Below are positions 2,994 to 54,391 of a stretch of 64,000 bases of DNA, piece by piece. Below the pieces are notes generated by a model. That model saw nothing but the letters and a program-made list of their open reading frames with translations. It did no database searches and was not told where the DNA came from. Made by a program: the position numbers and the translations under genes. Every line of letters begins with the position of its first letter. The stretch's first letter is position 1. The stretch comes from Enterovibrio baiacu. GTDB taxonomy: Bacteria > Pseudomonadota > Gammaproteobacteria > Enterobacterales > Vibrionaceae. Where the stretch lies: assembly GCF_004120195.1 (NCBI RefSeq), contig NZ_SCHN01000007.1, forward strand, positions 186,001-250,000. The letters are read 5' to 3'.

Positions 2994-5504
2994 ATGAGAA
3001 AGTTAGAACAACACAATTCAGGGGTTAGCGACGCTTATTCGAACATTGGAATGTTTCTTCGTCGGCGCTTTGCGATACACTGCGAACCATTCGAAGTGTT
3101 ACAAGATCTCCCCATGCAACCAGACTTTTCATTTCCACTCCCTATTGATGTTCTTCGTGATGAGATAGCGCGTGTGCTTCCTCGGCGTAATGTGATCATT
3201 CAAGCCGATACGGGAACGGGAAAATCGACACGGGTGCCACTTTGGGCGCGAACGCTTGGCCGTGTGTTAGTGATTGAACCTCGACGTGTTGCGTGTACTT
3301 CACTTGCGGGGTTTGTGGCAGAAAGCCTTTCGACTTCGGTTGGTAGACAGGTTGGTTATGCCATTAAGTTTGACCATCGGTTTACTGAAAACACCGAAAT
3401 TGTGTTTGCGACGCCGGGTGTCGTGCTTCGCTGGTTTAGCGAAAACAAACTGGCGGATTTTGATGTGGTGATGATCGATGAATTTCATGAGCGTCGCGCT
3501 GAAATGGATTTGCTCGCAGCGTTATTACTCAAATATGAGCAACATCGACTGATCGTAACGTCAGCAACCTTAGATGCGGGAAAACTTGCGACCTATTTTG
3601 ATGCAGAATGTTTAAAAGCCGTCGGTAGGAGTTACGGTGTCACAGTGTCTCACCACGCTCGAGACCCACAGTTTATGCCGACTGCACGAGATTTGGATGT
3701 TCGTATTAAGGCCCTTGTTGTTGATGCATTGGCGCGAGGCGGTGATGTGTTGGTTTTCTTGCCGGGGAAGAAAGAAATTAATCAATGTCAGGCGACACTA
3801 AAGGGCATTGAGGCAGAGGTTATTCCTTTGCATGCGTCGGTATCTGATCACGATAGGCACAGAGCACTTCATCCATCTTTTAAGCAAGATCGGCGTTCTC
3901 ACGCTAACGCTCAGTCTGACCATGTTCAACGTGTTGTGCTTGCCACCAATGTGGCAGAAACCTCACTTACCATTCCCGGCATTGTCACTGTCATCGACTC
4001 TGGACTCGAGCGGCGAACACATCAACGTAACGGTCGAACTGCATTGGCGCTTCATGCTATTTCCAGTGCTAGCGCAAAACAGCGAGCAGGGCGCGCGGGT
4101 CGTGTGACTGAGGGGTATTGCGACCGTATGTATGGAAAGCATGCACCATTAGAAGCGTTCACCCCGCCTTAGCTGGAGCGCGAAGAGCTCACCGAAACCA
4201 TGCTTGCCGCCGCAGCGTGCGGTTATCCGCTTAACACCTTGCCATTACTCAGCATATTGCCGGAAAAGTCTTGGGCTACAGGCGTTCAACGCCTTCGTGC
4301 GATGGGGGCGATTGATGAGGCAGGGAAGATAACACCGCATGGAAATACCCTTTACCCACTGCCTATCGATGCTTTGTTCGCGCACCTTATTTCGGGCATG
4401 AAGGATAAAAGTAATCAGGAAGCGATGTGTGATCTCGCCGCAATGCTTCAAACGCCACAAAAGGTATGGAAGCGAAAAGGTGGAGACGACGCCCTCGATG
4501 CGTTTAGCCAATGGAATAAACATCAATGTGACGTTGTCACATCGTTGGCGGTCATTCGAGAAGAACAACCCGATATCATTGATGTAGATACGCTTGCTCT
4601 TGCAGAAGCGAAACAACTTTCAGCCTCGTTACGTGAAGCATTAGCGCTGCCACAGCGAGAAGTCGCGAGTCGATTTAGGCGCGATGCCTTTTTAACGAAC
4701 GTGATGGAGGTATCGCCAGAGTTGGTTTTTGTTCGCCGAGCGCGAAGACAACAAGCATTCGGGAATGGCATAAGCGAAGCCGTACTTAGTCGCGATAGTG
4801 ACTTTCCAGATAAAGCCCAAGCCGCCATCATCTTTGATCAGTTTCACTTAGCGGGAAAAGGGTCAAAGCAAACCACGTCATACGCTACCTGTATGGCTTC
4901 TATTTCACTCGGTTCGATTGCACAGGCGGGGTTAGGTGATGAGCAGGTTGGTGAGCGACAAGAGCAAGATGGGCAGTTCGTCGACCTTGTTCAAACCGTG
5001 TATGCCGGTCGTGTTGTTGCTGAAACCGTGAGGCTAGCAGAAGGAGACAGCCTGATCGCAGCGTTAGCCGAGCGTATTCTTTCGGGAGAGCTCATTGAAG
5101 GTGCGGGAGCGGCAATCACTCGACAGGTAACCTATTGGAACCTGTACCAATCTCTTGAGAGCAAAACATCGACGCAAAACGTCAGTGCCCAAGCGTGGCT
5201 TGAAGAAGTACTTACCGATTTGGGGGTGGAATCTGCGGAAGATGTACTTCTTCTCGACAGCAGTGATCTTCATTTCGACGGCATTCCCGGTTGGGAGTTT
5301 GATGACTTTGCCGAAAAATACCCACTCACACTCCAACTCGCTCAGTTAAATCTGACGGTTGAATACAACAAAGCGAAACGAACGGTGGTTCTTCATCATC
5401 ACAGTGGCCTTAGAAAAGAGGGGCCAAAACGGTGGGAATTGCCGACATGGCAAGGCTGGCGTGTTCAATACAAAAAAGCCAGCCGTGTGGTTGATGTGAA
5501 ATAG
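2994..5504 (+). pseudogene. DEAH-box RNA helicase (HrpA/HrpB type) interrupted by an in-frame TAG
   Basis: Two consecutive open stretches in the same frame (2994-4172 and 4173-5504) together encode one DEAH-box helicase of about 836 residues, close to HrpB length. The first part holds motif I ADTGTGKST (71-79), motif II DEFH (162-165), SAT (190-192) and motif VI QRAGRAGR (363-370). It stops at TAG (4170-4172) in the context FTPP-stop-LEREEL. DEAH helicases normally have a P-E-I/L-x-R motif here, so one GAG to TAG change would explain the stop. The second part supplies the C-terminal helical and accessory domains; its first ATG is at 4200 with no ribosome site. The truncated 392-residue product keeps both RecA lobes. 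Start codons at 2994 or 3114 are both possible. It may be a pseudogene, a sequencing error, or a gene relying on readthrough. Confidence 0.75.
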
Positions 5505-10937: not shown

Positions 10938-11102
10938 GTCTCTTTTTCAGGCAACGAAGTCTTATCTTTGACCTTGCAAACTGGGTCGTGTGAATTCGCT
11001 TATTACGATGCAGGTTGTAAGGCATACAAACCACGCGAGTTTGGCTAGGTATAAAACCTATAAAGCAATGCATGATCAGGCGAAGGACCGCCGAATAAAA
11101 AG

Positions 11103-11129
11103 AGCCCGGAACGATTCCTGTTCCGGGCT
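11103..11129 (-). terminator. Terminator for leftward rsmF transcript
   Basis: A perfect 10-bp stem (AGCCCGGAAC with GTTCCGGGCT) and a 7-nt loop. The T-run is on the minus strand, so it ends leftward transcription from rsmF, 120 nt past its stop. Confidence 0.8.
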
Positions 11130-11142
11130 TAGGGGAATGGCT

Positions 11143-11218
11143 CGTAAGAGCCTTGCGCTAACTGGTTTAAATGGAGATTTGTAACTCTTAAAAATTTAGC
11201 TTGTGCAAGGTTCTTACG
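11143..11218. other. Long-range hairpin in the rsmF 3' region
   Basis: The arms 11143-11156 (CGTAAGAGCCTTGC) and 11205-11218 (GCAAGGTTCTTACG) pair over 14 bp with one G.U pair and a 48-nt loop. The arms can extend inward through a second TAA/TTA pairing. The element lies between the rsmF stop and its terminator, so it would be part of the rsmF 3' UTR. Confidence 0.6.
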
Positions 11219-11248
11219 GCGTTTCATCATTGAGAAAATGAAAACTAA

Positions 11249-44331: not shown

Positions 44332-47280
44332 TTATTTCACTTCCATGGATTGTGGCCTTGAAAAATCAAGGTACTTACCATTTCGGGCCTTCACAGACTT
44401 CAGATCCTCATTTGTCACACTTTGGCTAAAGGTCGCTGTTCGGTTGTAAGAAAGGTTTGGCCAATCTCCCAAACGCACCTTCACGCCTTCATCCGCATAG
44501 ACATATACGTCATGTTTTCGAATCCAGCTTGGAAGTGCATAACCGGAACGCTGATTGACAGGTAAGCAGTATTGCTCTCGGGTTGTTAAGCTCACGATGC
44601 AGCCAAGCGGTGTGGAGCTTTGTTCTACGCGCATAGAGCGAGGGGTTGAGAAATCAATATACTCGCCATTCTGTGCGAGTACATTGGAGAGTTTTCGGTT
44701 CTCAACCGTCCCTTCAAATGACGCAATGCGACGGTACGAAAGGTTATTGTAATCAGACAACACCACCTTAGCGCCAGGCTCAGCTTGGACATAGACCTCA
44801 TGGCGATTTATCCAGCTTGGCAAAGAATAGCCAGCACTTTTTCCTACCGATAAACAGTACTTTGCGCCAGATGACAGGCTCACAATACAGCCTTTTGCTT
44901 TGGTGACGTTGTCACCTCCAATGACGGTGACGGTCGGCTTGAAGTCTGTTGCATCGATTTGTCGGGTGCTTAGCGTTTTGCCATTACAACGCACTTCCGC
45001 GTTGAGCACTTCGGCAGAGCGCTCGATGTTAACGTTGAATTGGTTCATTTGGTTTGTAGAGAAACGTTTATCTGACAAAGCAAAATGCAACGTACCTTTG
45101 CGGCGAGTCTCAACGTTTAACTGGCAAGTCGCGTTCGCGCCGTCCTGGGCGTACGTCATGCCATATGCACCGTGGGTTGCTGGGTAGACATAACTTCGTA
45201 GTTTGTTCTCAGGATCGTAGTAACCAAAGAGCGTCGTAATAGGCACACCTTGTTTCTTTGGTACGCGTGCAACACTGAGATCGGGCTTGTTTGTACGCTT
45301 CCATGTCTTGCCATTGGAAACAAAATGCCACGTGTTTCCATTTTTGATCGTTTCAACGGCAGTGTTTACATGCACATTGGAGTGATAGCCTGCACGGTGG
45401 GCGATACTGATCACTTTTCCTTTGTTCGCGCGATTGGCGTCAGGGATGTGGATATCGCGCGTCCAATAGCCATTGCTAAACGAAATATTGATCAGCTTGT
45501 TGGTGGAAAGTAAATCGGCTAACTGCGCCTTTGACACCTGAGAGGGGCCAGCAGAGGCAGTTGGCGCATTGTTTACCTTTAATGACCACATCTCCATGGT
45601 TTTCGTGTCGTTATTCCACTTCGAAAAACCGGTTGGCGATGAAGGATCAAACACCGCTTTGTTTTCGAGGAAGCGCTGAATACGCTGCGCAGTATGTGGC
45701 GTATGGAGTGTGTAGTTGTTATATGTCGCATCGTAAATGCCGCCACCCGCCATCGCATCCTTATTGAATGCAAAGCCTTCAAACGCCTCTTGGCATTCAT
45801 CATTCAAGCAGGTTGCTTTGTCAGTCTTTACGCGGGAAAAGTTTGGAATAAAGGCGTTAGTATCAGCATCCCAGCCCCACGTAGAGTTCACTGCATTGGG
45901 TGGACGATGCACTGATCCGTTAAACCCGCCTGGATAATGACCAATACCGTAGTTATGTCCTAATTCATGGCTAAATTCGTTACCTTTGCTGCTTCGCAGT
46001 GTCACGATGCCAGCACCACCAGAGAGACCATGCACAACAACACCGTTTTCATAGCGACCTAGTGTGTTATGGGCACTGATTTGAGCGGCGGCATAAGGAT
46101 GGCTGCCTCCGGGGGCGGATGAATGAATGCCGTAGTTAGCGTTGTTAATACCAAGCGATATCAAGCGCTTCCCGATGGTTTCACGCATGCTTCCTTTGTG
46201 CACACCGCCTGTGTCTGGGGCGAAGTCTGTTAATAAGGTGCCGTCGGGCATCATCACTTCTTTGAAGTGGAGCGACGTGAAGTTATTGACGATGAGCTTG
46301 CTGGTGGGCGTTTGTTGGAAGTATTCGCGGATCAATTCAGGCTGCGTTTGCATCTCAAATTGATCGCGGTTAGGCGTCAACATACCTACATCGATGGTGT
46401 TCAGAAAAACCTGTGTTGGCGCGCCGACACTTACACCGTTCAATGTGCCTTGTTTGCCATTAGCGGTAAAAGCAAAGGACACCCCAGGTTCAATGAGTGT
46501 TGCATCGATAGCGACAGACCAAAAATCACCGTACTTCACACGGCCGGCGTTCGCATCCACGTCGCTGAACCAGCTTCCGTTGAGGTAGCGAAAAACGCGT
46601 GTTTCACCACGATTGACGGACAAGCGTTTACCCGAATACTTCACTGTTGAGCGGTATCCAGCCTCAGAGGAAACAACGACCGTTCGGCCATTAGCCACGT
46701 TTGAGTCTGGAAGCGTGAACGTGCTGACCCATGCGCCATTGGCTGTTTTAAGCTGAATAGCACCGAACTGCTTGAGCTGCTCAGTAAAGAACGACGCGTC
46801 TTCAAATTTCTTCAGCGTACTGGTGCCCGAAAATGAGCGGTCATAAGCGCTTGGTATCTTGAAATCGTCAGCGTTTAGGCCCGCAGAAAGCCCGCTCCCT
46901 GCAATGCTAGGAAGCGCATCGGGAGAGGCCATATCAAACTGTGCTTTTAATGTATTGTCTTTGTCGAACACAGACACGCGCACTTGTTTCGCATGTTTAT
47001 CGCGCTCAGACAGTTTCATCATCACCAAGGTGTTGCGCGCACCAGTCAGGTGAGGCTGAGTATCGTTTGGAATATGTTGCTTGGCAGGAATAATGGCGTG
47101 CTGCGCAAACATGACATAGCCAGAAAGCGCGCCTTCCAAATCGTTATAGAAATTGTTGTTAAAGGTCGCGACAGGGCTGGTGGCTGTGTTTGTTTCAGCT
47201 AACACGTACGGAGAAGCAAACGCCAGTGCGATCGACAAGCTTGTTGAAATCCTTGTAAGGTGTAAGGATCGTTTTTGCAT
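44332..47280 (-). CDS. Secreted M66 metalloprotease (StcE/TagA-like)
   Basis: A 982-residue secreted zinc protease. It has a signal peptide (residues 1 to about 28, ending VLA). The extended zinc motif HELGHNYGIGH lies near residue 440, inside the M66 signature region (GGAGIVTLRSSKGNEFSHELGHNYG). Family members include StcE of enterohaemorrhagic E. coli, a mucinase, and Vibrio cholerae TagA. A related module occurs before and after the catalytic domain (NVANGRTVVVSSEAGYRSTV and NRANKGKVISIAHRAGYHSNV). Two C-terminal repeats of about 100 residues carry C-I-V-S-L ... Y-C-L, S-W-I-x-x-H-x-V-Y-V and N-L-S-Y-x-R, resembling beta/gamma-crystallin folds. A mucin or glycoprotein target is inferred. 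Confidence 0.88.
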   Translation of the reverse strand: MQKRSLHLTRISTSLSIALAFASPYVLAETNTATSPVATFNNNFYNDLEGALSGYVMFAQHAIIPAKQHIPNDTQPHLTGARNTLVMMKLSERDKHAKQVRVSVFDKDNTLKAQFDMASPDALPSIAGSGLSAGLNADDFKIPSAYDRSFSGTSTLKKFEDASFFTEQLKQFGAIQLKTANGAWVSTFTLPDSNVANGRTVVVSSEAGYRSTVKYSGKRLSVNRGETRVFRYLNGSWFSDVDANAGRVKYGDFWSVAIDATLIEPGVSFAFTANGKQGTLNGVSVGAPTQVFLNTIDVGMLTPNRDQFEMQTQPELIREYFQQTPTSKLIVNNFTSLHFKEVMMPDGTLLTDFAPDTGGVHKGSMRETIGKRLISLGINNANYGIHSSAPGGSHPYAAAQISAHNTLGRYENGVVVHGLSGGAGIVTLRSSKGNEFSHELGHNYGIGHYPGGFNGSVHRPPNAVNSTWGWDADTNAFIPNFSRVKTDKATCLNDECQEAFEGFAFNKDAMAGGGIYDATYNNYTLHTPHTAQRIQRFLENKAVFDPSSPTGFSKWNNDTKTMEMWSLKVNNAPTASAGPSQVSKAQLADLLSTNKLINISFSNGYWTRDIHIPDANRANKGKVISIAHRAGYHSNVHVNTAVETIKNGNTWHFVSNGKTWKRTNKPDLSVARVPKKQGVPITTLFGYYDPENKLRSYVYPATHGAYGMTYAQDGANATCQLNVETRRKGTLHFALSDKRFSTNQMNQFNVNIERSAEVLNAEVRCNGKTLSTRQIDATDFKPTVTVIGGDNVTKAKGCIVSLSSGAKYCLSVGKSAGYSLPSWINRHEVYVQAEPGAKVVLSDYNNLSYRRIASFEGTVENRKLSNVLAQNGEYIDFSTPRSMRVEQSSTPLGCIVSLTTREQYCLPVNQRSGYALPSWIRKHDVYVYADEGVKVRLGDWPNLSYNRTATFSQSVTNEDLKSVKARNGKYLDFSRPQSMEVK

Positions 47281-47585: not shown

Positions 47586-49181
47586 CTATCCGTTCTTTAG
47601 CGCCTTCCAGTTAAGGCCGAACTTGGCCAAGTACTTCTGCAGTCTTGATGAATCATTGGCTTGTGTTTTCTTCGTTCGACTCACATTGAACAATTCACGT
47701 CCTGCTGCGGCCATAGAGTCGTGTCGCGCGCAAACATCGAGTACAAATTGCAATTGGTGCTTATCGAAATCATCGAGGTCCATGAGCACATCTTCCCTCA
47801 ACACGTTTAAGGATGAAGAGGCCAGTGAAGGAGTATCGCTTGGTGACCAAGACGCTGTGAGTCGTTGCACTTCGTCATTCACGTCTTCGACAGAGATCCG
47901 AGAAGAGTCCGCCAGAGTGCCTAATCGTGTGATGGCAGAGCTAAGATCGCGGAAGTTACCTTGCCACGTCGCCTTACTTGAATGAGCAAACTGGAGAAAC
48001 GCGTTTCTCGCTTCTTTATTAAACCTGACGCGGTGGCCGTGTTTCTCAGCGAAAGAGACCAATTCATACTCGAGATTGGCGTCCAGATCTTCTTTTCTGT
48101 CTTTCAGCGCCGGGAGTTGATACGTCCAAAGATTAATGCGCGCCAGTAAGTCATCACGAAACTCACCACGCTCAACCATGGCTTTCAGATTGCGATTTGT
48201 GCCCGCTATCAGTTGGAAATTACTTTGGGTTTCGCTGTCACTGCCTACAGGGTGGAAGCGCTTGTATTCGATAGCGTGTAACAGCATGGCTTGTTCTTCC
48301 AAGCCCAGCTCGCCAATTTCATCGAGAAACAATAAGCCATTGTTAGCCGCCATGAGAAAGCCGTCACGTGCTGACGATGCGCCAGTGAATGCGCCCTTGG
48401 TGTGCCCAAACAAAGCAGCCATTGCATTCATGCCTTTCAATGTCGCACAGTTCACCACAACGAACTGTCCTTTCAACATCGAGCGCATTTTCTTGAGTTG
48501 ATAAATACGCTGAGCGAGCTGACTTTTCCCTGCACCGGTAGGGCCGGTAAGTAAAATAGGGGCGGTCGAACGGATCGCCACTTTCTCTATTTGGGTAATC
48601 AATTGGTTAAAAGCGGTGTTCTTGGTTTCTATGCCCGATTTAAGAAAGGTTTCACCTTGCAGGCTCGCGTTATCAAAGCGCGTGGCGAGTTGGTCATAAC
48701 GCGATAAATCCAAATCGATGAGTTGCACACGACCTATGGATTTATCCTCCTTACTGTTGTCAGGGGCCGTTTGAATGAGTTTTCCGGGGAATTGGCGACT
48801 TTCCGTTAAGAGATAACTACAGATCTGCGCGACATGGGTGCCCGTCGTGATATGGAAAAGGTACTCATTGTTCTCGATATCAAAATCCATGGAATCACAG
48901 AAATCGTAGAGCTTGGCGTAAACCTCTTCGAAGTCCCAAGGATCGAGAAAGTTCATTTCACAGACATGCACTTGGGTGTCGCTCGACACCGCTTTAATGT
49001 CTGATGCGACAGTTTTGGCAAGACGCAGGTTGTGATTGTCATGAAGCAAGTACACTTCATCTATCGGCAGATCTTCTTGGCTGACGAGACTCACATTAGG
49101 ACGCCAACGGTGGAGGCGATCGACGTGTTTCCCAATTCTGTCTAGCTGTGTCCCCAACAAGCTCAACGCAATCGTCTTCAT
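47586..49181 (-). CDS. rtcR: RtcR, sigma-54-dependent activator with CARF-like sensor domain
   Basis: A 531-residue bacterial enhancer-binding protein, the length of E. coli RtcR (532). The N-terminal CARF-like Rossmann domain (about 1-180) carries ITTGTHVAQI (111-120); in RtcR this domain senses an RNA-related ligand, probably a terminal cyclic phosphate species. The AAA+ domain has Walker A GPTGAGKS (213-220), the sigma-54 contact loop GAFTGA (263-268) and Walker B LLFLDE (283-288). A C-terminal helix-turn-helix follows (AGRELFNVSR). I chose the ATG at 49181, preceded by GAAGGG, over a GTG at 49199. RtcR usually controls the RNA-repair genes rtcBA; here it is divergent from a sigma-54 promoter, tRNA-like RNAs and a slipin. 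Confidence 0.95.
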   Translation of the reverse strand: MKTIALSLLGTQLDRIGKHVDRLHRWRPNVSLVSQEDLPIDEVYLLHDNHNLRLAKTVASDIKAVSSDTQVHVCEMNFLDPWDFEEVYAKLYDFCDSMDFDIENNEYLFHITTGTHVAQICSYLLTESRQFPGKLIQTAPDNSKEDKSIGRVQLIDLDLSRYDQLATRFDNASLQGETFLKSGIETKNTAFNQLITQIEKVAIRSTAPILLTGPTGAGKSQLAQRIYQLKKMRSMLKGQFVVVNCATLKGMNAMAALFGHTKGAFTGASSARDGFLMAANNGLLFLDEIGELGLEEQAMLLHAIEYKRFHPVGSDSETQSNFQLIAGTNRNLKAMVERGEFRDDLLARINLWTYQLPALKDRKEDLDANLEYELVSFAEKHGHRVRFNKEARNAFLQFAHSSKATWQGNFRDLSSAITRLGTLADSSRISVEDVNDEVQRLTASWSPSDTPSLASSSLNVLREDVLMDLDDFDKHQLQFVLDVCARHDSMAAAGRELFNVSRTKKTQANDSSRLQKYLAKFGLNWKALKNG

Positions 49182-49213
49182 TTTTATTTTTCCCTTCACC
49201 CAGACATTTATTC

Positions 49214-49229
49214 CTATCTATATGGATAG
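49214..49229. promoter_or_regulatory. Candidate RtcR upstream activator site
   Basis: CTATCTATATGGATAG is a 14/16 palindrome 130 bp upstream of the sigma-54 -24 element, a typical enhancer distance. A second inverted repeat, GTTTA-N10-side spacing to TAAAC with six bases between arms (49300-49315), lies closer to the promoter. Neither has been matched to a published RtcR consensus. Confidence 0.4.
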
Positions 49230-49358
49230 AAGGCATATCTAAACTAATCAAATCGTGTGTTTATTTTTGAAGGGTAAGCAACACTCTTTTTGGCGCCTAG
49301 TTTAAAAAAGTAAACATAAACATCCACATAAAACTATTTTCCTGTTTCTTACCGTGTT

Positions 49359-49374
49359 TGGCACGTTACTTGGA
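49359..49374 (+). promoter_or_regulatory. Sigma-54 promoter of the tRNA-like RNA / slipin unit
   Basis: TGGCAC-GTTAC-TTGGA matches the -24/-12 consensus TGGCAC-N5-TTGCW with one deviation (TTGG for TTGC). The predicted start is near 49385, directly at the first structured RNA module. A divergent rtcR gene supports the assignment. Confidence 0.88.
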
Positions 49375-49388
49375 ATACTGAGTCTGTG

Positions 49389-49506
49389 ATTAGCGGTGGT
49401 GACTCAAACGTTCACGCTGGTGCACGTCACACTGTGACTGTGTATTCCGATCACACACCTCTGGAGAGGAACAGTTTCCACTGTTACGGGTTCGATTCCG
49501 TTTAAT
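49389..49506 (+). ncRNA. Structured RNA module A with T-arm-like hairpin
   Basis: About 118 nt starting just after the predicted transcription start. A short closing stem, ATTAG (49389-49393) with TTAAT (49502-49506), encloses a chain of five hairpins that abut with no spacer: GTCAC/GTGAC (49426-49438), TGTGT/ACACA (49439-49457), CCTC/GAGG (49458-49469), AACAGT/ACTGTT with a TTCC loop (49470-49485) and ACGG/CCGT (49486-49501). The last one has the loop GTTCGATT, a T-loop sequence. No D-arm or anticodon is evident. It ends where module B begins. It could be a highly modified tRNA-like RNA or a Y-RNA-like element; no Ro (rsr) gene is present here. Confidence 0.55.
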
Positions 49507-49580
49507 GACTAGATAGCTCAGGGGTAGAGCGACGAAACAACATTTTGTGTGCGTAGGTTCGATTCCTACTCTAGTACCCA
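49507..49580 (+). ncRNA. tRNA-like RNA module B (ends in CCA)
   Basis: A 74-nt cloverleaf. It has a six-pair acceptor ACTAGA/TCTAGT with a mismatched first pair (G.A), a D-arm GCTC/GAGC with loop AGGGGTA, a T-stem GTAGG/CCTAC with loop TTCGATT, and a terminal C-CCA. The anticodon arm ACGAA/TTTGT has the loop ACAACAT, which has C instead of the universal U33 and closes further by an A-T pair to a five-base loop. A formal anticodon would be AAC but the loop is not decoding-competent. It is most likely a tRNA mimic, not a translating tRNA-Val. It abuts modules A and C. Confidence 0.7.
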
Positions 49581-49650
49581 ATTGGTAGCTCAGTTGGTAG
49601 AGCGGCGAAAGCAATTTCGTTTGTCGCGGGTTCAATTCCCGTCCAATCAC
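49581..49650 (+). ncRNA. tRNA-like RNA module C (anticodon arm capped by GCAA)
   Basis: It starts at the base after the CCA of module B. The acceptor is only five pairs (ATTGG/CCAAT), followed by TA, a canonical D-arm GCTC-AGTTGGTA-GAGC and a canonical T-arm GCGGG-TTCAATT-CCCGT. The anticodon position forms CGAAA-GCAA-TTTCG, a five-pair stem with a GNRA tetraloop, plus two G.U pairs below. There is thus no anticodon loop. The 3' end reads CAC, not CCA. It keeps the tRNA elbow (D and T arms) but cannot decode. Confidence 0.7.
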
Positions 49651-49855
49651 TTTATGTATCGCAACACGGCGTAAAACGGGCTGGCCACTGCCAGTGAGAC
49701 GCAAATGAAACAGCGAGATTCAGCAGGCAGGACGCCACCTGAACCACAAGTTTCGCTTGCCCCTTATTGGTATGTTTGTCCTTTTTACGCTCAACACCTT
49801 GGCAAAATTGCTCGTGATTTGACGAATGATTTAGCACGGTAATTTAAGGAAGAAA
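49651..49855 (+). other. Leader between tRNA-like RNAs and slipin gene
   Basis: A 205-nt untranslated stretch with no terminator. Small hairpins are visible, such as CTGGC-CACT-GCCAG near 49680-49693 and CAAG-TTTCG-CTTG near 49747-49759. The slipin ribosome site AAGGAAG is at 49846-49852. The absence of a terminator suggests the RNAs and slipin share one transcript that is then processed. Confidence 0.5.
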
Positions 49856-51013
49856 ATGATGTTTAGAAAAACCATTAAAATTGCAGAAAATGAACGCGCA
49901 CTGGTATTCAAAAACCAACAACTCACGGATGTGCTCATGCCGGGCACTCATAAGGTGTGGGATATTTCCGATGAAGTTAGCTTTCAGCGCTTTGACATTG
50001 ATGCGCTCTATTTCTCTCCAGTAAACGGTGAGCGCTTGTATCAATGCAATGTTGCGTTACGTGAGCAGATCACACATGAAAAGCTGGCTGACACAGAAGT
50101 TGGTCTGTTGTTTGTGAATGACATGCTGAGAGGTGTGGTGGCGCCGGGTGAGCGACTCTTTCTCTGGAAAGATGCGGGAGATATTCGTGTAGAGCGAACC
50201 GACATTAGCGCGCAACTGCAACTCAACGAACAAACCTTGTTTCTTGTGAACAAAGCGGGGGCAAACACGGCCTCAAGACTGATTCGAAGTGCAGAGACCG
50301 TCGCGATCAAGCCCATCATGAATGCAGTGGTGAAGAACAACCATGTGGGATTGCTTTATGTGGATGGCAAGCTGGTGGAAACACTCGAACCGGGGCAATA
50401 CGGCTATTGGCAATTCAATCGCGACGTGACGCTTAAAACGTTCGATACACGTACTCAGATTCTCGAGATCTCCGGACAAGAGATCATGACGAAAGATCGT
50501 GTGAGCTTGCGGATTAACTTAACGGCGAGCATCCGCGTTATTGATGCTAAAACTGCCGCGAGTAACGTCGAGAAGCTTGAAGATTATGTGTACAAGTTGC
50601 TTCAACTTGCGCTTCGGGAAGCCATTGGCACCAAGACACTGGATGATCTTTTACTGGATAAACTCTACATCGGCGAAACGGTGAGAGAGCTGGTGACAGA
50701 ACAACTCGCTGATATCGGCGTCGCGCTGGGTAATGTAGGCATGAAAGACATCATTCTGCCGGGCGATATCAAAGGGATCTTGAACCAAGTGGTGGAGGCG
50801 CAGAAATCTGCTGAAGCCAACGTGATCAAACGTCGAGAAGAAACAGCCGCAACGCGAAGCTTGCACAACACGGCCAAAGTGATGGAAAACAACCCAACAT
50901 TAATGCGCCTTAAAGAGCTAGAAGCGCTGGAAAAAGTCGCTGAGAAAATCGATAGCCTGACAGTGTACGGCGGGTTAGATGGCTTGATGCAAGGTGTCGT
51001 GAAAATAACGTAA
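49856..51013 (+). CDS. Soluble slipin (SPFH/Band 7 protein) in RtcR-controlled unit
   Basis: A 385-residue SPFH/Band-7 protein. Unlike most slipins it shows no N-terminal membrane segment. Three similar modules precede or enter the SPFH core: ENERALVFKNQQLTDVLMPG (from 11), TEVGLLFVNDMLRGVVAPGE (from 80) and NHVGLLYVDGKLVETLEPGQ (from 162). The SPFH core runs to about residue 320 (EIMTKDRVSLRINLTASIRV, LREAIGTKTLDDLLLDK, then NQVVEAQKSAEANVIKRREE). AAGGAAG precedes two adjacent ATGs at 49856 and 49859. SPFH proteins form large ring or cage assemblies. A scaffold role around damaged or tRNA-like RNA is suggested by context only; no RNA-binding motif is recognised. Confidence 0.88.
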   Translation: MMFRKTIKIAENERALVFKNQQLTDVLMPGTHKVWDISDEVSFQRFDIDALYFSPVNGERLYQCNVALREQITHEKLADTEVGLLFVNDMLRGVVAPGERLFLWKDAGDIRVERTDISAQLQLNEQTLFLVNKAGANTASRLIRSAETVAIKPIMNAVVKNNHVGLLYVDGKLVETLEPGQYGYWQFNRDVTLKTFDTRTQILEISGQEIMTKDRVSLRINLTASIRVIDAKTAASNVEKLEDYVYKLLQLALREAIGTKTLDDLLLDKLYIGETVRELVTEQLADIGVALGNVGMKDIILPGDIKGILNQVVEAQKSAEANVIKRREETAATRSLHNTAKVMENNPTLMRLKELEALEKVAEKIDSLTVYGGLDGLMQGVVKIT

Positions 51014-51016
51014 ACC

Positions 51017-51065
51017 GCGCGCTTCTTTCTGGTTATACATCAACAACCCAAGGAAAGAAGCGCGT
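51017..51065 (+). terminator. Long hairpin after the slipin gene
   Basis: A perfect 12-bp stem, CGCGCTTCTTTC (51018-51029) with GAAAGAAGCGCG (51053-51064), begins four bases after the slipin stop. No U-tract follows, so it may be a 3'-stabilising or processing hairpin instead of a classic terminator. Confidence 0.5.
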
Positions 51066-51350
51066 CCTGAGCATGGAAATCATAAGGTGTACTGAGAGCA
51101 AAAAATAGTGAAACAAGAATATAAAACCACAAGCGAATGCTGGTGGATATCAGCGTTCAGAGGTCGATGTTCTTTCGCGTTGTCATCTGCTTTCCGGCAT
51201 CAAAGTTAATACTCTAATGCACTATAACTAATTTGTGCCGCCTTGCCATAATTTCGCCATTATTGGTCTTAATTGGCCACAATTGAACCCCAGAACAGAC
51301 AGATTGATTTGATGTAATGATGCCATTCAAAACACAGAGAGGACGAAGCA
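51066..51350. other. Intergenic region upstream of the sortase target gene
   Basis: Gene-free, with the promoter of the sortase pair presumably inside it. It contains CTAATGCACTATAACT at 51214-51229, repeated identically after the sortase gene at 54412-54427. The ribosome site GAGAGGA lies just before 51351. Confidence 0.5.
51214..51229. repeat. 16-bp direct repeat, left copy flanking the sortase pair
   Basis: CTAATGCACTATAACT, identical to 54412-54427, about 3.2 kb apart in the same orientation. A 13-bp related copy, GCACTATAACTTA, occurs after rmf at 40192-40204. Upstream both long copies share an AGTTAA segment. Confidence 0.7.
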
Positions 51351-53669
51351 ATGGCATGCTTACCCAACGTCAAACCATCCGATTCAGAGACGCAAAACAG
51401 CCGTAAAAACGTTGTCGATACCACCCGTCAATTCAAGTTGTGGACATTGGCGCTGCTGCTTTTTATCGCGACACCTTTTGTCACGATGGCCAATGAACAA
51501 GAAGGGGGATTATTCCTTCAAATGGTGAACAGCCATCAGAATTTATGGAGTGAAGCGCCACAGCTTTCAACGGATGCTGACATGGAAGTGAATGGATTGA
51601 TTAATCGCGTCACTGTCACACAAACCTTTACCAACCCAACGGACAGTTGGGTGAATGCGCGGTATTTATTTCCATTGCCACAAAACGCAGCGGTGGATCA
51701 ACTTACCATTCGAGTCGGCGAGCGCATCATTGTGGGTGAAATCCAACCTAAACAAAAAGCCCGAGAAGCCTTTAACAAAGCAGCAGCAGAAGGAAAGAAA
51801 ACCTCGCTGGTAGAACAGCATCGTTCAAACTTGTTTTCGACACAGATTGCGAACGTCGCGCCAGAAGAAACCATCATTGTCGAGATTGAATACCAAGAAA
51901 CCGTGAAGTATGAAGACGGGGTGTTTAGCCTGCGCTTCCCGACGACGTTCACGCGGAAATACATTCCTGGTTTGCCCGTTCTTTCGGTTGGTGAACTTAG
52001 CCCTGCAGAGCAAGCGATTCAAAGTGACAGTGCAAACAATCACATGGTGAGTCGTGATAGTGGTGAGAGCAATGGGGAAACAAACGGCGTAGAGAATGCT
52101 GCTACGACAATCTCATCGAACGGATCGACATCGCAAGCAGCGCCTGTCTTGGCGCAAATGCACAATGGTTGGGCGGTTGCTACACCGCAAGTGCCGGATG
52201 CCAACGAAGTGACACCAGATTATCGCGATCCCTTGATTGATGGTGACATTCAATTCACCCTGAGCGTTGACTTAAATACCGGTCTGGAATTGGATGCCGT
52301 CGAAAGCCCATCTGCCGCCATTAATGTTCAACAGATTTCTCTGACACGCTATGCCGTCACGCTGAGCCAAATGGAACTCGCTAACAAGGATTTCGAACTG
52401 ACCTGGCGTCCAACAGCAGCGTTCAGCCCTGTTGCTGCCATGTTTGTTCAAGAAACAGAAATGGAAACCAGTGCAAATTCGAGCGTCGAACTAGAAAGCG
52501 AAACGCGTTATGGCTTGCTCATGGCCATGCCACCGCAAACGAATGAAAGAACCAGCATCCCACAGAACATCACCTTTGTGTTGGACGTGTCAGGCTCCAT
52601 GTTTGGTGACGCCATTGAACAAGCCAAAGAGGCGGTTATCTACGCGTTAAATCGACTAGACCCTAACGATTATTTCAACCTGATCATTTTTAATGATGAA
52701 GCCGCGTATCTATCAGACACGCCCCTTATTGCGTCACTTAAAAACATTGGAGAGACCATTGCCGTTGTTGAATCACTCAAAGCGGATGGTGGCACTGAAA
52801 TGGTTGGCGCGCTTGAACTTGCCTATAGCTATGAAGCCAAAGAAAACTTCGCGAACCAAATCGTTTTCATCACTGATGGCGCAATTGGTAACGAAGCGGA
52901 ACTCTATGCACTCATTCAAGAAGGGTTGGGAAACCGTCGGTTATTCACGGTAGGGATCGGTTCTGCACCAAACAGTGCCTTTATGCAGCGCGCCGCGATC
53001 AGCGGAAAGGGCACATTCACACACATTGGCCAACTTAACCAAGTGGTCAGCGCCTTGCAGCCGCTCTTCGACAAGCTCTCAAGCCCTGTGATGCAAGACA
53101 TCAAAGTAACCTGGCAAGACGGCACGCCTGTCGATGCATGGCCTTCGCCAGTGCCGGATTTGTATAAGCACCAACCGTTGACGTTAGCCTTCAAAATTCC
53201 TTCGGACGCTAAAACCCTCAACCTGTCAGGCAAGCTTAATCAACAAACGTGGAATTACAGCATCGATTTAGAAAACGTTGGCGCCGGACAAGCGACGGGC
53301 ATTGATGTGCTTTGGGCGCGCAAGCAAATTGAAAGTATTACCTTAGATCAAACCCTGAGCGCTGAGCAAAAGGAGCAACGCATTACTCAACTGGGGCTAA
53401 ACCATCATATCGTCACTAAGCACACCAGTCTGATAGCGATTGACCAAACACCCACGCGTCCTTTGGATGAAAACGCTGCGTCATTCAACATCAACCCGCA
53501 TAAGCCTCACAACGCTGCAAACGGGTCTAATGGTGTGATGCTACAAAGTGGATTAGGAAGCACGATGGCAATGCTGTTCGGCGGCCTTATCTTGATGTTG
53601 AGTATGTTTGCATGGTGCTGGACGGCTCGAATGAACAAAGATCGAGAGGTATGGGAGTCGCTATCATGA
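51351..53669 (+). CDS. Marine proteobacterial sortase target protein (VIT-VWA)
   Basis: A 772-residue envelope protein. It has a signal segment at about 28-47, an N-terminal VIT domain (WSEAPQLSTDADMEVNGLINRVTVTQTFTNPT ... FPLPQNAAVDQL ... IEYQETVKYEDGVFSLRFPTTF), a VWA domain with the MIDAS motif DVSGSMFG (near residue 413), and a C-terminal hydrophobic helix followed by RMNKDREVWESLS. This layout is that of the dedicated targets of marine class GN sortases. No LPxTG-type motif is evident; the region just before the helix reads GVMLQSGLGSTM. The sortase gene overlaps its stop codon (ATGA). The processed protein probably ends up anchored in or released from the envelope; its function is unknown. 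Confidence 0.9.
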   Translation: MACLPNVKPSDSETQNSRKNVVDTTRQFKLWTLALLLFIATPFVTMANEQEGGLFLQMVNSHQNLWSEAPQLSTDADMEVNGLINRVTVTQTFTNPTDSWVNARYLFPLPQNAAVDQLTIRVGERIIVGEIQPKQKAREAFNKAAAEGKKTSLVEQHRSNLFSTQIANVAPEETIIVEIEYQETVKYEDGVFSLRFPTTFTRKYIPGLPVLSVGELSPAEQAIQSDSANNHMVSRDSGESNGETNGVENAATTISSNGSTSQAAPVLAQMHNGWAVATPQVPDANEVTPDYRDPLIDGDIQFTLSVDLNTGLELDAVESPSAAINVQQISLTRYAVTLSQMELANKDFELTWRPTAAFSPVAAMFVQETEMETSANSSVELESETRYGLLMAMPPQTNERTSIPQNITFVLDVSGSMFGDAIEQAKEAVIYALNRLDPNDYFNLIIFNDEAAYLSDTPLIASLKNIGETIAVVESLKADGGTEMVGALELAYSYEAKENFANQIVFITDGAIGNEAELYALIQEGLGNRRLFTVGIGSAPNSAFMQRAAISGKGTFTHIGQLNQVVSALQPLFDKLSSPVMQDIKVTWQDGTPVDAWPSPVPDLYKHQPLTLAFKIPSDAKTLNLSGKLNQQTWNYSIDLENVGAGQATGIDVLWARKQIESITLDQTLSAEQKEQRITQLGLNHHIVTKHTSLIAIDQTPTRPLDENAASFNINPHKPHNAANGSNGVMLQSGLGSTMAMLFGGLILMLSMFAWCWTARMNKDREVWESLS

Positions 53670-54391
53670 ATGGGGATATGATGCGATTCAAACGGAACTG
53701 GGGAACCTCTCGAATCGTCAGGGTCTTAGGTAAATTAGGCAAACGCCGTGCCGCCATCTTTTTAGCATTTCTGGTGGGATTCGCTCTCTTTGGTCACGGT
53801 GTTTACATTCAGGCTAAGGCTCAACTGGCACAATTGCTCATCGCACATGCATGGGAGAGCCAACAACAAATAGGGGGGATTCATCGTCCTTGGCCGTGGG
53901 CCGACACATACCCGATCGCTAAAATGGGCGTGAATGATGACCCCCCACAATGGGTGCTGTCAGGCGCAAACGCCCGAAATCTCGCGTTTGGTCCAACGCT
54001 ACAAATGAACACCGCGCTGCCTGGCAAGCAAGGAAACATGGTGATCTATGGACACAATGACACACATTTTGCAGGATTAAGCCAGGTAGAGATCGGTGAT
54101 GATATTGCGATTGAGGATGCCAGTGGGAAACTGCGGCTTTACCAGATTCGTGATTTTAACATTGTCGACGAATCGGAAACGCAATGGATTCAAGATACGG
54201 ATGATGACCGCTTAACATTGATTACCTGCTATCCCTTCAATGCATTAACGGTAAACGGTCCACTTCGATTGGTGGTGATCGCAACCCCAAAAGATGCAGA
54301 AAATCAGGTGACTACACAAAATGAAGCATTGAAGGATATAACGGGTGATGTGTTATATTCTGACGTGAATTCAAGAGGATACTGGTTATAG
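53666..54391 (+). CDS. Class GN (marine) sortase
   Basis: A 241-residue sortase with an N-terminal membrane anchor (RRAAIFLAFLVGFALFGHGVYI). The catalytic His is in NMVIYGHNDTHFAGL and the catalytic Cys in RLTLITCYPFNAL, with the Arg in GPLRLVVIA. The start at 53666 overlaps the target-protein stop codon by ATGA; an upstream in-frame start at 53612 lies within the target gene. This sortase type is found paired one-to-one with the VIT-VWA target in marine gammaproteobacteria, so the pair is a closed enzyme-substrate unit. Confidence 0.92.
   Translation: MNGDMMRFKRNWGTSRIVRVLGKLGKRRAAIFLAFLVGFALFGHGVYIQAKAQLAQLLIAHAWESQQQIGGIHRPWPWADTYPIAKMGVNDDPPQWVLSGANARNLAFGPTLQMNTALPGKQGNMVIYGHNDTHFAGLSQVEIGDDIAIEDASGKLRLYQIRDFNIVDESETQWIQDTDDDRLTLITCYPFNALTVNGPLRLVVIATPKDAENQVTTQNEALKDITGDVLYSDVNSRGYWL

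Follow-up and report, generated by a model that had tools for sequence, protein, structure and literature searches.

Modules in which an SPFH (Band-7) protein is paired with its own tRNA-like RNA, in neighborhoods of RNA-repair genes, were reportedly described by Burroughs and Aravind in 2016; the association of the two in such loci is already published. Here we analyze a related locus from the marine bacterium Enterovibrio baiacu. It lies in a stretch of 64,000 nucleotides (positions 186,001 to 250,000 of contig NZ_SCHN01000007.1), which we will call the window. The locus comprises the regulatory gene rtcR, a divergent sigma-54-type promoter, a structured RNA leader, and a gene for a soluble SPFH protein, or slipin. 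Neither RtcB, RtcA, nor RlaP was found in the window (tblastn with the proteins of the related locus L007, E up to 1e-3).

In Salmonella, RtcR binds 5' tRNA halves that end in a cyclic phosphate, and these halves activate it (PMC7790460). The same authors offered the noncoding RNA YrlA as a nuclease competitor, though YrlA itself was not cut, and they reported that rtcA is dispensable for RtcR activation in a ruvA mutant (PMC7790460). According to PMC9650030, RtcR activation needs RtcAB. Pseudomonas aeruginosa PA14 has an rtc locus in which the SPFH gene of PaFlo8 is embedded with rtcA, rtcB, and rtcR (PMC13086221). In Anabaena, a TrcR regulon includes the trn operon of 26 tRNAs, rtcB, and the slipin alr0740 (PMC10272220).

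Our tentative explanation is that the locus in the window is an operon, switched by RtcR and sigma-54, that encodes an RNA-protein particle. It would have been reduced from an RtcR-slipin-RtcB(-RtcA-RlaP) repair operon to a ligase-independent cage with tRNA mimics. The features of the locus are given in Table 1.

Table 1. Features of the rtcR-slipin locus, in window coordinates.
Feature	Position	Strand	Evidence
rtcR: CARF - AAA+ (sigma-54 activator) - DNA-binding regulator	47586..49199	-	Pfam, NCBIfam, motifs, omega
Probable RtcR enhancer site, palindrome TATCTATATGGATA	49215..49228	.	144 bp 5' of the sigma-54 box
Sigma-54-type promoter box TGGCACGTTACTTGGA	49359..49374	+	Same box type precedes the RNA leader in gamma relatives
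Three-way junction RNA	49383..49459	+	Covariance model, 67.6 bits in the window
Half tRNA lacking a D-arm, with an anticodon-like arm and a T-arm whose loop folds with 6 nt	49464..49506	+	T-arm motif at 49490; fold
tRNA-like A	49507..49577	+	Rfam tRNA, 42.0 bits; ARAGORN "Val(aac)"; 5-nt anticodon loop (maximal-stem parse)
tRNA-like B	49579..49650	+	Rfam tRNA, 40.1 bits at 49581-49647; z -2.30; anticodon loop of 4 nt with a stem of 6 bp (maximal-stem parse)
Rod RNA: long hairpin, imperfectly paired, whose tip GCAGGCAGGACGC is conserved	49664..49795	+	z -5.04; covariation
Soluble SPFH (slipin) protein, 385 aa	49856..51013	+	Band_7, repeats, structure model
rtcB deletion scar	51060..51334	+	Flanks resemble the flanks of Grimontia rtcB

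The regulator is a clear RtcR. It matches the NCBIfam equivalog RNA_repair_RtcR (NF038308) at 759 bits (the cut-off is 650), it matches RtcR (249.8 bits) and the sigma-54 activation domain in Pfam, and both the GAFTGA and Walker A motifs are found in it. Translation may begin at the in-frame ATG at 49181. The sigma-54-type site TGGCACGTTACTTGG occupies 49359-49373, which places the predicted transcription start near 49385. The consensus for the -12 element of sigma-54 promoters is TTGC; this element is TTGG in the window, and in the gamma relatives it is TTGG, TTGT, or TTGA.

We compared 28 loci: the window and 27 loci from Gammaproteobacteria with RtcR in the fetched stretch (L004-L029 and L049). 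These are not independent, as nine are of the Pseudoalteromonas luteoviolacea type and five are from the window's genus. (L035 and L039 have RtcR yet were excluded from the counts; no RtcR was seen in L030-L032, which are labeled as gamma.) In all 28 loci, TATC-N6-GATA lies 5' of the sigma-54 box, at a distance of 142-146 bp in 25 loci and of 125 bp in three. The bare palindrome has five copies across the whole window, and the combination of palindrome, spacing, and box occurs once in the genome, at the rtcR locus. Among 18 genomes of the genus, exactly the five with RtcR have this signature at the rtcR locus; two of the 18 (G006 and G012) have one additional match each. In ten remoter regions that we scanned, the spacing is 124-127 bp in L117, L118, L122, L123, L130, and L131 and 144 bp in L120, and the palindrome is present with the box pattern unmatched in L115, L116, and L129. 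In Thaumasiovibrio occultus (L017, 2550-4368), three open reading frames (ORFs) lie between rtcR and the enhancer, and the site, the promoter, and the RNAs are retained. The enhancer at a fixed spacing, together with the rod RNA in loci that its model was not trained on (see below), is more than chance. The comparison supports the view that rtcR, the enhancer, the promoter, and the leader form one RtcR/sigma-54 unit, and the divergent arrangement of rtcR and a sigma-54 promoter, which a first-pass annotation had read from the window's DNA, is borne out by the equivalog score, the box, and the enhancer.

The absence of repair enzymes is where the window departs from its relatives. Of the 28 loci, 26 have rtcB in the region 3' of slipin, where rtcA is found in 21 and the RlaP nucleotidyltransferase in 18 (as identified with Pfam on examples); the two loci without rtcB are those of the window and E. 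norvegicus (L004). The window retains a scar: 51060-51095 resembles the 5' flank of rtcB in Grimontia (L005 6193-6225; a weak blastn match, E 0.04), 51215-51334 resembles its 3' flank (L005 7509-7626; E 1e-21), and no remnant of rtcB lies between the two. Because rtcB is kept in 26 of 28 loci and the flanks are recognizable with nothing between them, the missing enzymes reflect a derived deletion in the window's lineage instead of the basic design. The first-pass annotation had seen no rtcA, rtcB, or nucleotidyltransferase gene in the window, and the search for RtcB, RtcA, and RlaP agrees; its reading changes in that the absence is secondary. We rejected the converse, an insertion of rtcB in Grimontia, as all 23 of the gamma RtcR-slipin loci from outside the window's genus have rtcB 3' of slipin (after RlaP in L018).

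Elsewhere in the window's genome, a genome-wide check found an rtcB2-prfH pair (L003 6948-8746), which has no RtcR enhancer-promoter signature, and no RtcA; RtcA was found in none of the 18 genomes of the genus. One of these (G003) has a second, RtcB2-like match. In the sister species, E. norvegicus, a Pfam search of the genome found neither RtcB nor RtcA. Outside the family, G733, from another family of the order, encodes RtcR, slipin, and RlaP (L115), with no match to RtcB or RtcA by Pfam search, which makes it a second loss. The leader in G733 has a T-arm and a folded RNA, with no Rfam-grade tRNA.

Both proteins are maintained despite the loss. Between the window and E. norvegicus, the omega of rtcR is 0.029, with 141.5 of 350 synonymous sites changed, and that of slipin is 0.075, with 61 of 266 synonymous sites changed (23%); the slipins are 96% identical. 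This supports purifying selection on RtcR and slipin without local repair enzymes, and since both species lack rtcB, selection most likely acted without it. The leader differs at 11 of 473 positions (2.3%), as compared to 33 of 336 (9.8%) in the downstream intergenic region (Fisher's exact test, P = 5e-6; P = 4e-19 against the synonymous sites of slipin). So the earlier claim that the unit persists without repair enzymes beside it holds.

The predicted transcript opens with a structured leader of about 410 nt (from ~49385 to 49795) in which the three-way junction, the half tRNA, the two tRNA-likes, and the rod follow each other, with the slipin gene next. The first-pass annotation saw three abutting structured RNAs here. 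Only two of the window's three T-arm units pass the Rfam tRNA threshold (29 bits); the first of the three RNAs is the three-way junction plus the half tRNA, which lacks a D-arm. The annotation also missed the rod, between the tRNA-likes and slipin. It was correct that no terminator is visible before slipin: terminator-like sites between 49200 and 51400 are at the chance level (2 found, 2.2 expected). By z-score, the minimum-energy folds of the junction (-1.00) and of the first two tRNA units (-0.86 and -1.07) are unremarkable.

A tRNA match in Rfam is present 5' of slipin in 36 of the 44 sources that we ran (the window plus 3, 17, 13, and 10 loci; 14 of the 47 loci from the slipin survey are outside this count), including loci in which rtcB-rtcA lies upstream of it. 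These matches come from Gammaproteobacteria, Betaproteobacteria, bins labeled Alphaproteobacteria, Planctomycetota, and Gemmatimonadetes, and a part of them are ordinary tRNAs. The best scores in the relatives reach 70 bits, versus 42.0 and 40.1 in the window. No Rfam-grade tRNA was found 5' of slipin in L036, L042, L047, L050, L115, L116, L119, or L121. That a tRNA or tRNA-like RNA precedes slipin in so many sources supports the view that the RNAs and the slipin belong together.

We parsed 48 upstream regions and obtained, from 91 T-arm anchors, 67 units that have a D-arm. (The parse demands a 7-nt T-loop, which excludes the window's half tRNA.) In four chosen ortholog groups (32 units), the anticodon loops are the most variable part, with 0.59-0.72 differences per site. 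D-stems (0-0.06) and T-arms (0.04-0.13) are conserved, as are the acceptors in three groups (0-0.08), with group 3 as the exception (0.29); D-loops (0.04-0.32) and variable loops (0.23-0.40) fall between the stems and the anticodon loops. Decoding tRNAs show the opposite pattern. Because variation peaks in the anticodon loop, the window's tRNA-likes probably do not decode. Such units are tRNA-shaped RNAs whose anticodon is not conserved. We rejected a decoding tRNA array, given the window's loops of 5 and 4 nt and the variation among orthologs, and we also rejected membership in the YrlA family (RF02553), as the Rfam score is 29.1 bits and the threshold is 69.

N-CCA follows 16 of the 67 units, where about one would be expected at 1 in 64; about 9 of the 16 are from the closely related P. 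luteoviolacea-type loci. No CCA is encoded 3' of tRNA-like B, where one could still be added. Pairing of the acceptor stem is seen in 78.5% of cells, as compared to 54.3% with shuffled partners (maximum 59.3%), but this excess is inflated, since the parser favored positions with paired acceptors and units with fewer than three pairs were dropped.

The rod covaries strongly. It has 40 consensus pairs, and 30 of these are changed on both sides among 13 sequences. Its z-score is -5.04 in the window and -2.79, -3.06, and -4.69 in L005, L007, and L014. The rod model matches 28 of 49 sources at E < 0.002, 15 of them untrained. The rod was also found in 6 of 20 further loci, of which L122, L132, L133, and, in part, L116 are new, while L126 and L134 repeat L004 and L012. 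Four of the five changes between the rods of the window and E. norvegicus fall in pairs, and in the window's fold all four still pair; the E. norvegicus rod's own minimum-energy fold differs in its middle part.

The fold of the junction is less secure than that of the rod. The junction model matches all 28 loci (20 training and 8 untrained), with weak but correctly placed matches in L032-L035 and matches in 6 of the 20 further loci (L122, L129, L133, and, weakly, L132 are new). Neither rod nor junction was found in L117 or L123. Six of 369 genomes of the class match the junction model. Two matches are strong, with RtcR and slipin; the four weak ones (E 0.001-0.008), with no RtcR or slipin within about 3 kb, may be chance. 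RNAalifold found only 11 pairs in the junction, three of them with two-sided changes, and it missed the closing stem. When closing-stem strands were swapped, the mean was 14.3 for own strands and 10.8 for swapped ones, and 10% of cross-clade swaps reached the own median, which is only suggestive of a conserved closing stem. The single change from E. norvegicus is in a loop. The window's copies of the rod and the junction have no match in Rfam up to E 10.

The slipin has a Band_7 domain (108.9 bits in Pfam), and a profile of 35 slipins matches stomatin in the PDB at 5e-35. It has no membrane-grade segment (the highest 19-residue Kyte-Doolittle mean is 1.14), so "soluble slipin" was an apt description. 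In the structure model (pLDDT 80.5), three tandem beta-modules, the third within the SPFH domain, are joined to an SPFH core and a long helix. The N-terminus comprises two extra beta-modules where membrane SPFH proteins have a hairpin or helix. The slipins of the P. luteoviolacea type (~540 aa; L020-L026, L028, and L029) have additional beta-modules before the SPFH domain. Among the matches listed, the vault protein is the only solved fold that spans the predicted structure, and the profile found no chain of the major vault protein (MVP) at E <= 1. The slipin probably forms rings.

Slipin also follows RtcR across genomes. RtcR and a strong slipin match coincide in the same five of the genus's 18 genomes. 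When we drew genomes from the whole order, RtcR was encoded in 44 of 394 (a count that includes three weak matches, in G406, G604, and G755). A strong slipin match (E below 1e-70) accompanies it in 28 of these, some of them over residues 74-384 only. None of 20 genomes without RtcR, all from the window's family, has a strong slipin match; four have a weak SPFH match.

In two genomes of one genus (G722 and G749, of eight that we fetched from family f189), RtcR is divergent from rtcB-rtcA-tRNA(Met)-slipin, which lies behind the same type of enhancer and promoter. According to ARAGORN, slipin is followed by 13 (G722: L117 and L127) or 17 (G749: L123 and L128) tRNA genes on the same strand, each with a different anticodon, and then by RlaP; Rfam confirms 7 of 9 (L117) and 14 of 15 (L123). 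This arrangement is a candidate for a damage-induced operon of spare tRNAs. Also, a tRNA-His(gtg) gene is located just 3' of slipin, at equal distance, in two Planctomycetota (L037 6218-6290 and L038 6217-6289) and in a bin labeled Alphaproteobacteria (L046 6214-6286), all of which have tRNA-likes 5' of slipin as well. Given the spare sets, the tRNA-His genes, and the Anabaena operon on one side and the window's mimics on the other, slipin-linked tRNA-shaped RNAs range from real tRNA sets to mimics that apparently do not decode.

We propose the following mechanism. By analogy, broken tRNAs (5' halves with a 2',3'-cyclic phosphate) would activate RtcR. RtcR bound at the 49215 palindrome would then open the 49359 promoter, as the conserved sites suggest, and the predicted transcript would run from the leader into slipin. 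The slipin may form a soluble, vault-like ring or cage that binds the leader RNAs. The non-decoding tRNA mimics held by the cage could serve as bait for anticodon nucleases or could capture damaged tRNA, so that the module would protect without ligation; in the loci with rtcB, the same particle might be a scaffold for repair. The parts and their conservation are solid, and RNA binding, cage formation, and protection are the steps that we infer. Protection by the particle would be the simplest remaining function. The first-pass annotation had suggested that a slipin ring may display the tRNA mimics, or serve for their assembly, as a decoy, sensor, or scaffold, and our analysis supports its reading in part. 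A bolder version, which we consider unlikely, is that this is a bacterial "mini-vault" for tRNA damage: an RtcR-induced, soluble, MVP-like shell with tRNA-shaped RNAs, the junction and the rod as two new RNA families, and, in some relatives, spare tRNAs, and thus a particle instead of a ligase system.

Two observations slightly lower our confidence in the particle and raise it in a cis-acting leader and in a back-up supply of tRNAs. Conservation of the gap between rtcR and the promoter is on a par with that of the leader (5 of 156 positions differ, or 3.2%), and therefore the RNAs are not singled out; and the CCA directly after tRNA-like A (49578-49580) overlaps the 5' end of tRNA-like B. In the first of these rivals, the leader would act only in cis, tuning the stability or translation of the slipin mRNA, with no separate life for the RNAs. 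The RNAs are directly 5' of slipin wherever we saw them, with terminators between them at the chance level, and the rod stops about 60 nt before the start codon. Adjacent tRNA-likes overlap in L007 too (4682-4752 and 4749-4822), so not all of them could be excised as full tRNAs. But cis control is a modest task for so elaborate a leader, which spans 410 nt and contains two or three tRNA bodies, N-CCA follows many units as though they were once, or still are, matured, and real tRNA genes lie 3' of slipin in L117, L123, and L037/L038/L046. We judge that a purely cis-acting leader is unlikely, and we think it quite unlikely that the tRNA-likes amplify the signal, with their cleavage yielding 5' fragments with cyclic phosphates that sustain RtcR in a positive feedback. 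RtcR's ligand is of this type (PMC7790460), each of the 28 loci in the main gamma group has both RtcR and the leader, and a genome without RtcA may need another source of ligand. Yet the anticodon loops, where cleavage would be expected, are not conserved, Salmonella's YrlA is not cut (PMC7790460), and in L030-L034 and others the fetched stretch contains a tRNA-like and slipin but shows no RtcR.

A back-up supply of tRNAs, in which the array replaces cleaved tRNAs and the window's copies are degenerate members, would explain the spare-tRNA arrangement behind an RtcR-type enhancer and promoter in G722 and G749, the single Anabaena repressor over 26 tRNA genes, rtcB, and a slipin (PMC10272220), and the N-CCA after 16 of 67 units, including tRNA-like A. 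We consider it improbable for the window, where the anticodon loops are 4-5 nt and orthologous units are conserved in the body and not in the loop. It is very improbable that RtcB2, which is encoded with PrfH, provides the ligase in trans and that this is still a repair operon: rtcB2-prfH is indeed in the genome, and G003 has its RtcB2-like match, but E. norvegicus keeps the locus with no RtcB found, and the single enhancer-promoter signature in the genome is not at rtcB2. Finally, the loss of rtcB, rtcA, and RlaP from the locus, the halving of the first tRNA-like, and tRNA scores below those of the relatives (42 and 40 versus up to 70 bits) could mark a decaying, functionless remnant of a repair operon. 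The low omega of both genes, rod changes that keep pairing, and a leader that diverges at about one-tenth of the synonymous rate of slipin have already largely refuted this, and we give it hardly any credence. The ligase-independent particle remains our tentative explanation.

Nature here provides a separation of function: E. norvegicus retains the switch (RtcR), the leader RNAs, and the slipin, with neither RtcB nor RtcA found, which suggests that the RNAs and the protein have a role of their own. This makes it possible to test the roles of the tRNA-likes and the SPFH protein apart from ligation, the activation of RtcR without RtcA or RtcB, and the idea of a vault-like protein with a small RNA as an old device against tRNA damage. 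Activity of the locus in E. norvegicus would mean that RtcAB cannot be a general requirement for RtcR activation. And if the mini-vault is real, the still enigmatic vault of eukaryotes would gain a functional parallel or an ancestor in bacteria.

Among the neighboring genes, a VIT/VWA marine sortase target (TIGR03788) and a sortase adjoin the scar (51351-54391). VIT domains also occur in the vault protein PARP4. We rejected the VIT/VWA protein as part of a vault-PARP, as it is TIGR03788 and ORFs that match in size and order follow rtcB in Grimontia, which suggests that its position beside slipin is a coincidence. Beside rtcR is a large M66 (StcE/TagA-type) metalloprotease with beta/gamma-crystallin repeats (44332-47280). 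Elsewhere in the window (11093-11230), the small RNAs SdsR and SraC/RyeA match on opposite strands at the Rfam threshold.

As far as our searches show, the novelty of this locus consists of its ligase-free form, its two extra RNAs (rod and junction), and its vault-like architecture, together with the candidate spare-tRNA operons of relatives; the literature matches listed include PaFlo8 and the Anabaena regulon but no description of the ligase-free variant or of the two extra RNAs. With the SPFH and tRNA-like modules of 2016, the locus shares an SPFH protein beside a tRNA-like, and its relatives carry rtcB, rtcA, and RlaP. The syntax of those modules reportedly includes a ligase, whereas the window's locus lost its ligase, and in the genomes of two lineages we found no RtcB. 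With the rtcBA operons of E. coli and Salmonella, it shares the RtcR equivalog, the sigma-54 promoter, the theme of tRNA damage, and a tRNA-like noncoding RNA (YrlA in those operons). It differs in lacking rtcB and rtcA, in having an SPFH protein at the locus, and in its RNAs, which are tRNA-likes plus two further RNAs and which fall short of YrlA's threshold. Unlike the window's locus, PaFlo8 includes the enzymes, and the word tRNA is absent from the main text of PMC13086221. In Anabaena (PMC10272220), a slipin, rtcB, and tRNA-shaped RNAs are likewise under a single regulator of translational stress, but this regulator is the repressor TrcR instead of RtcR, and the tRNA operon is on a megaplasmid, apart from the slipin. 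The window's protein shares the SPFH domain with stomatin and the membrane slipins, without their N-terminal membrane hairpin or helix. As compared to the eukaryotic vault, in which MVP forms half-shells of 39-fold symmetry that enclose RNA, the window's slipin is smaller (385 aa, with three modules against R1-R9) and has no match to MVP at the sequence level, and a closed shell would be hypothetical; what the two would share, as predicted for the window, is a series of beta-modules followed by an SPFH shoulder and then a long helix, with small structured RNAs alongside (the vault RNAs in eukaryotes).

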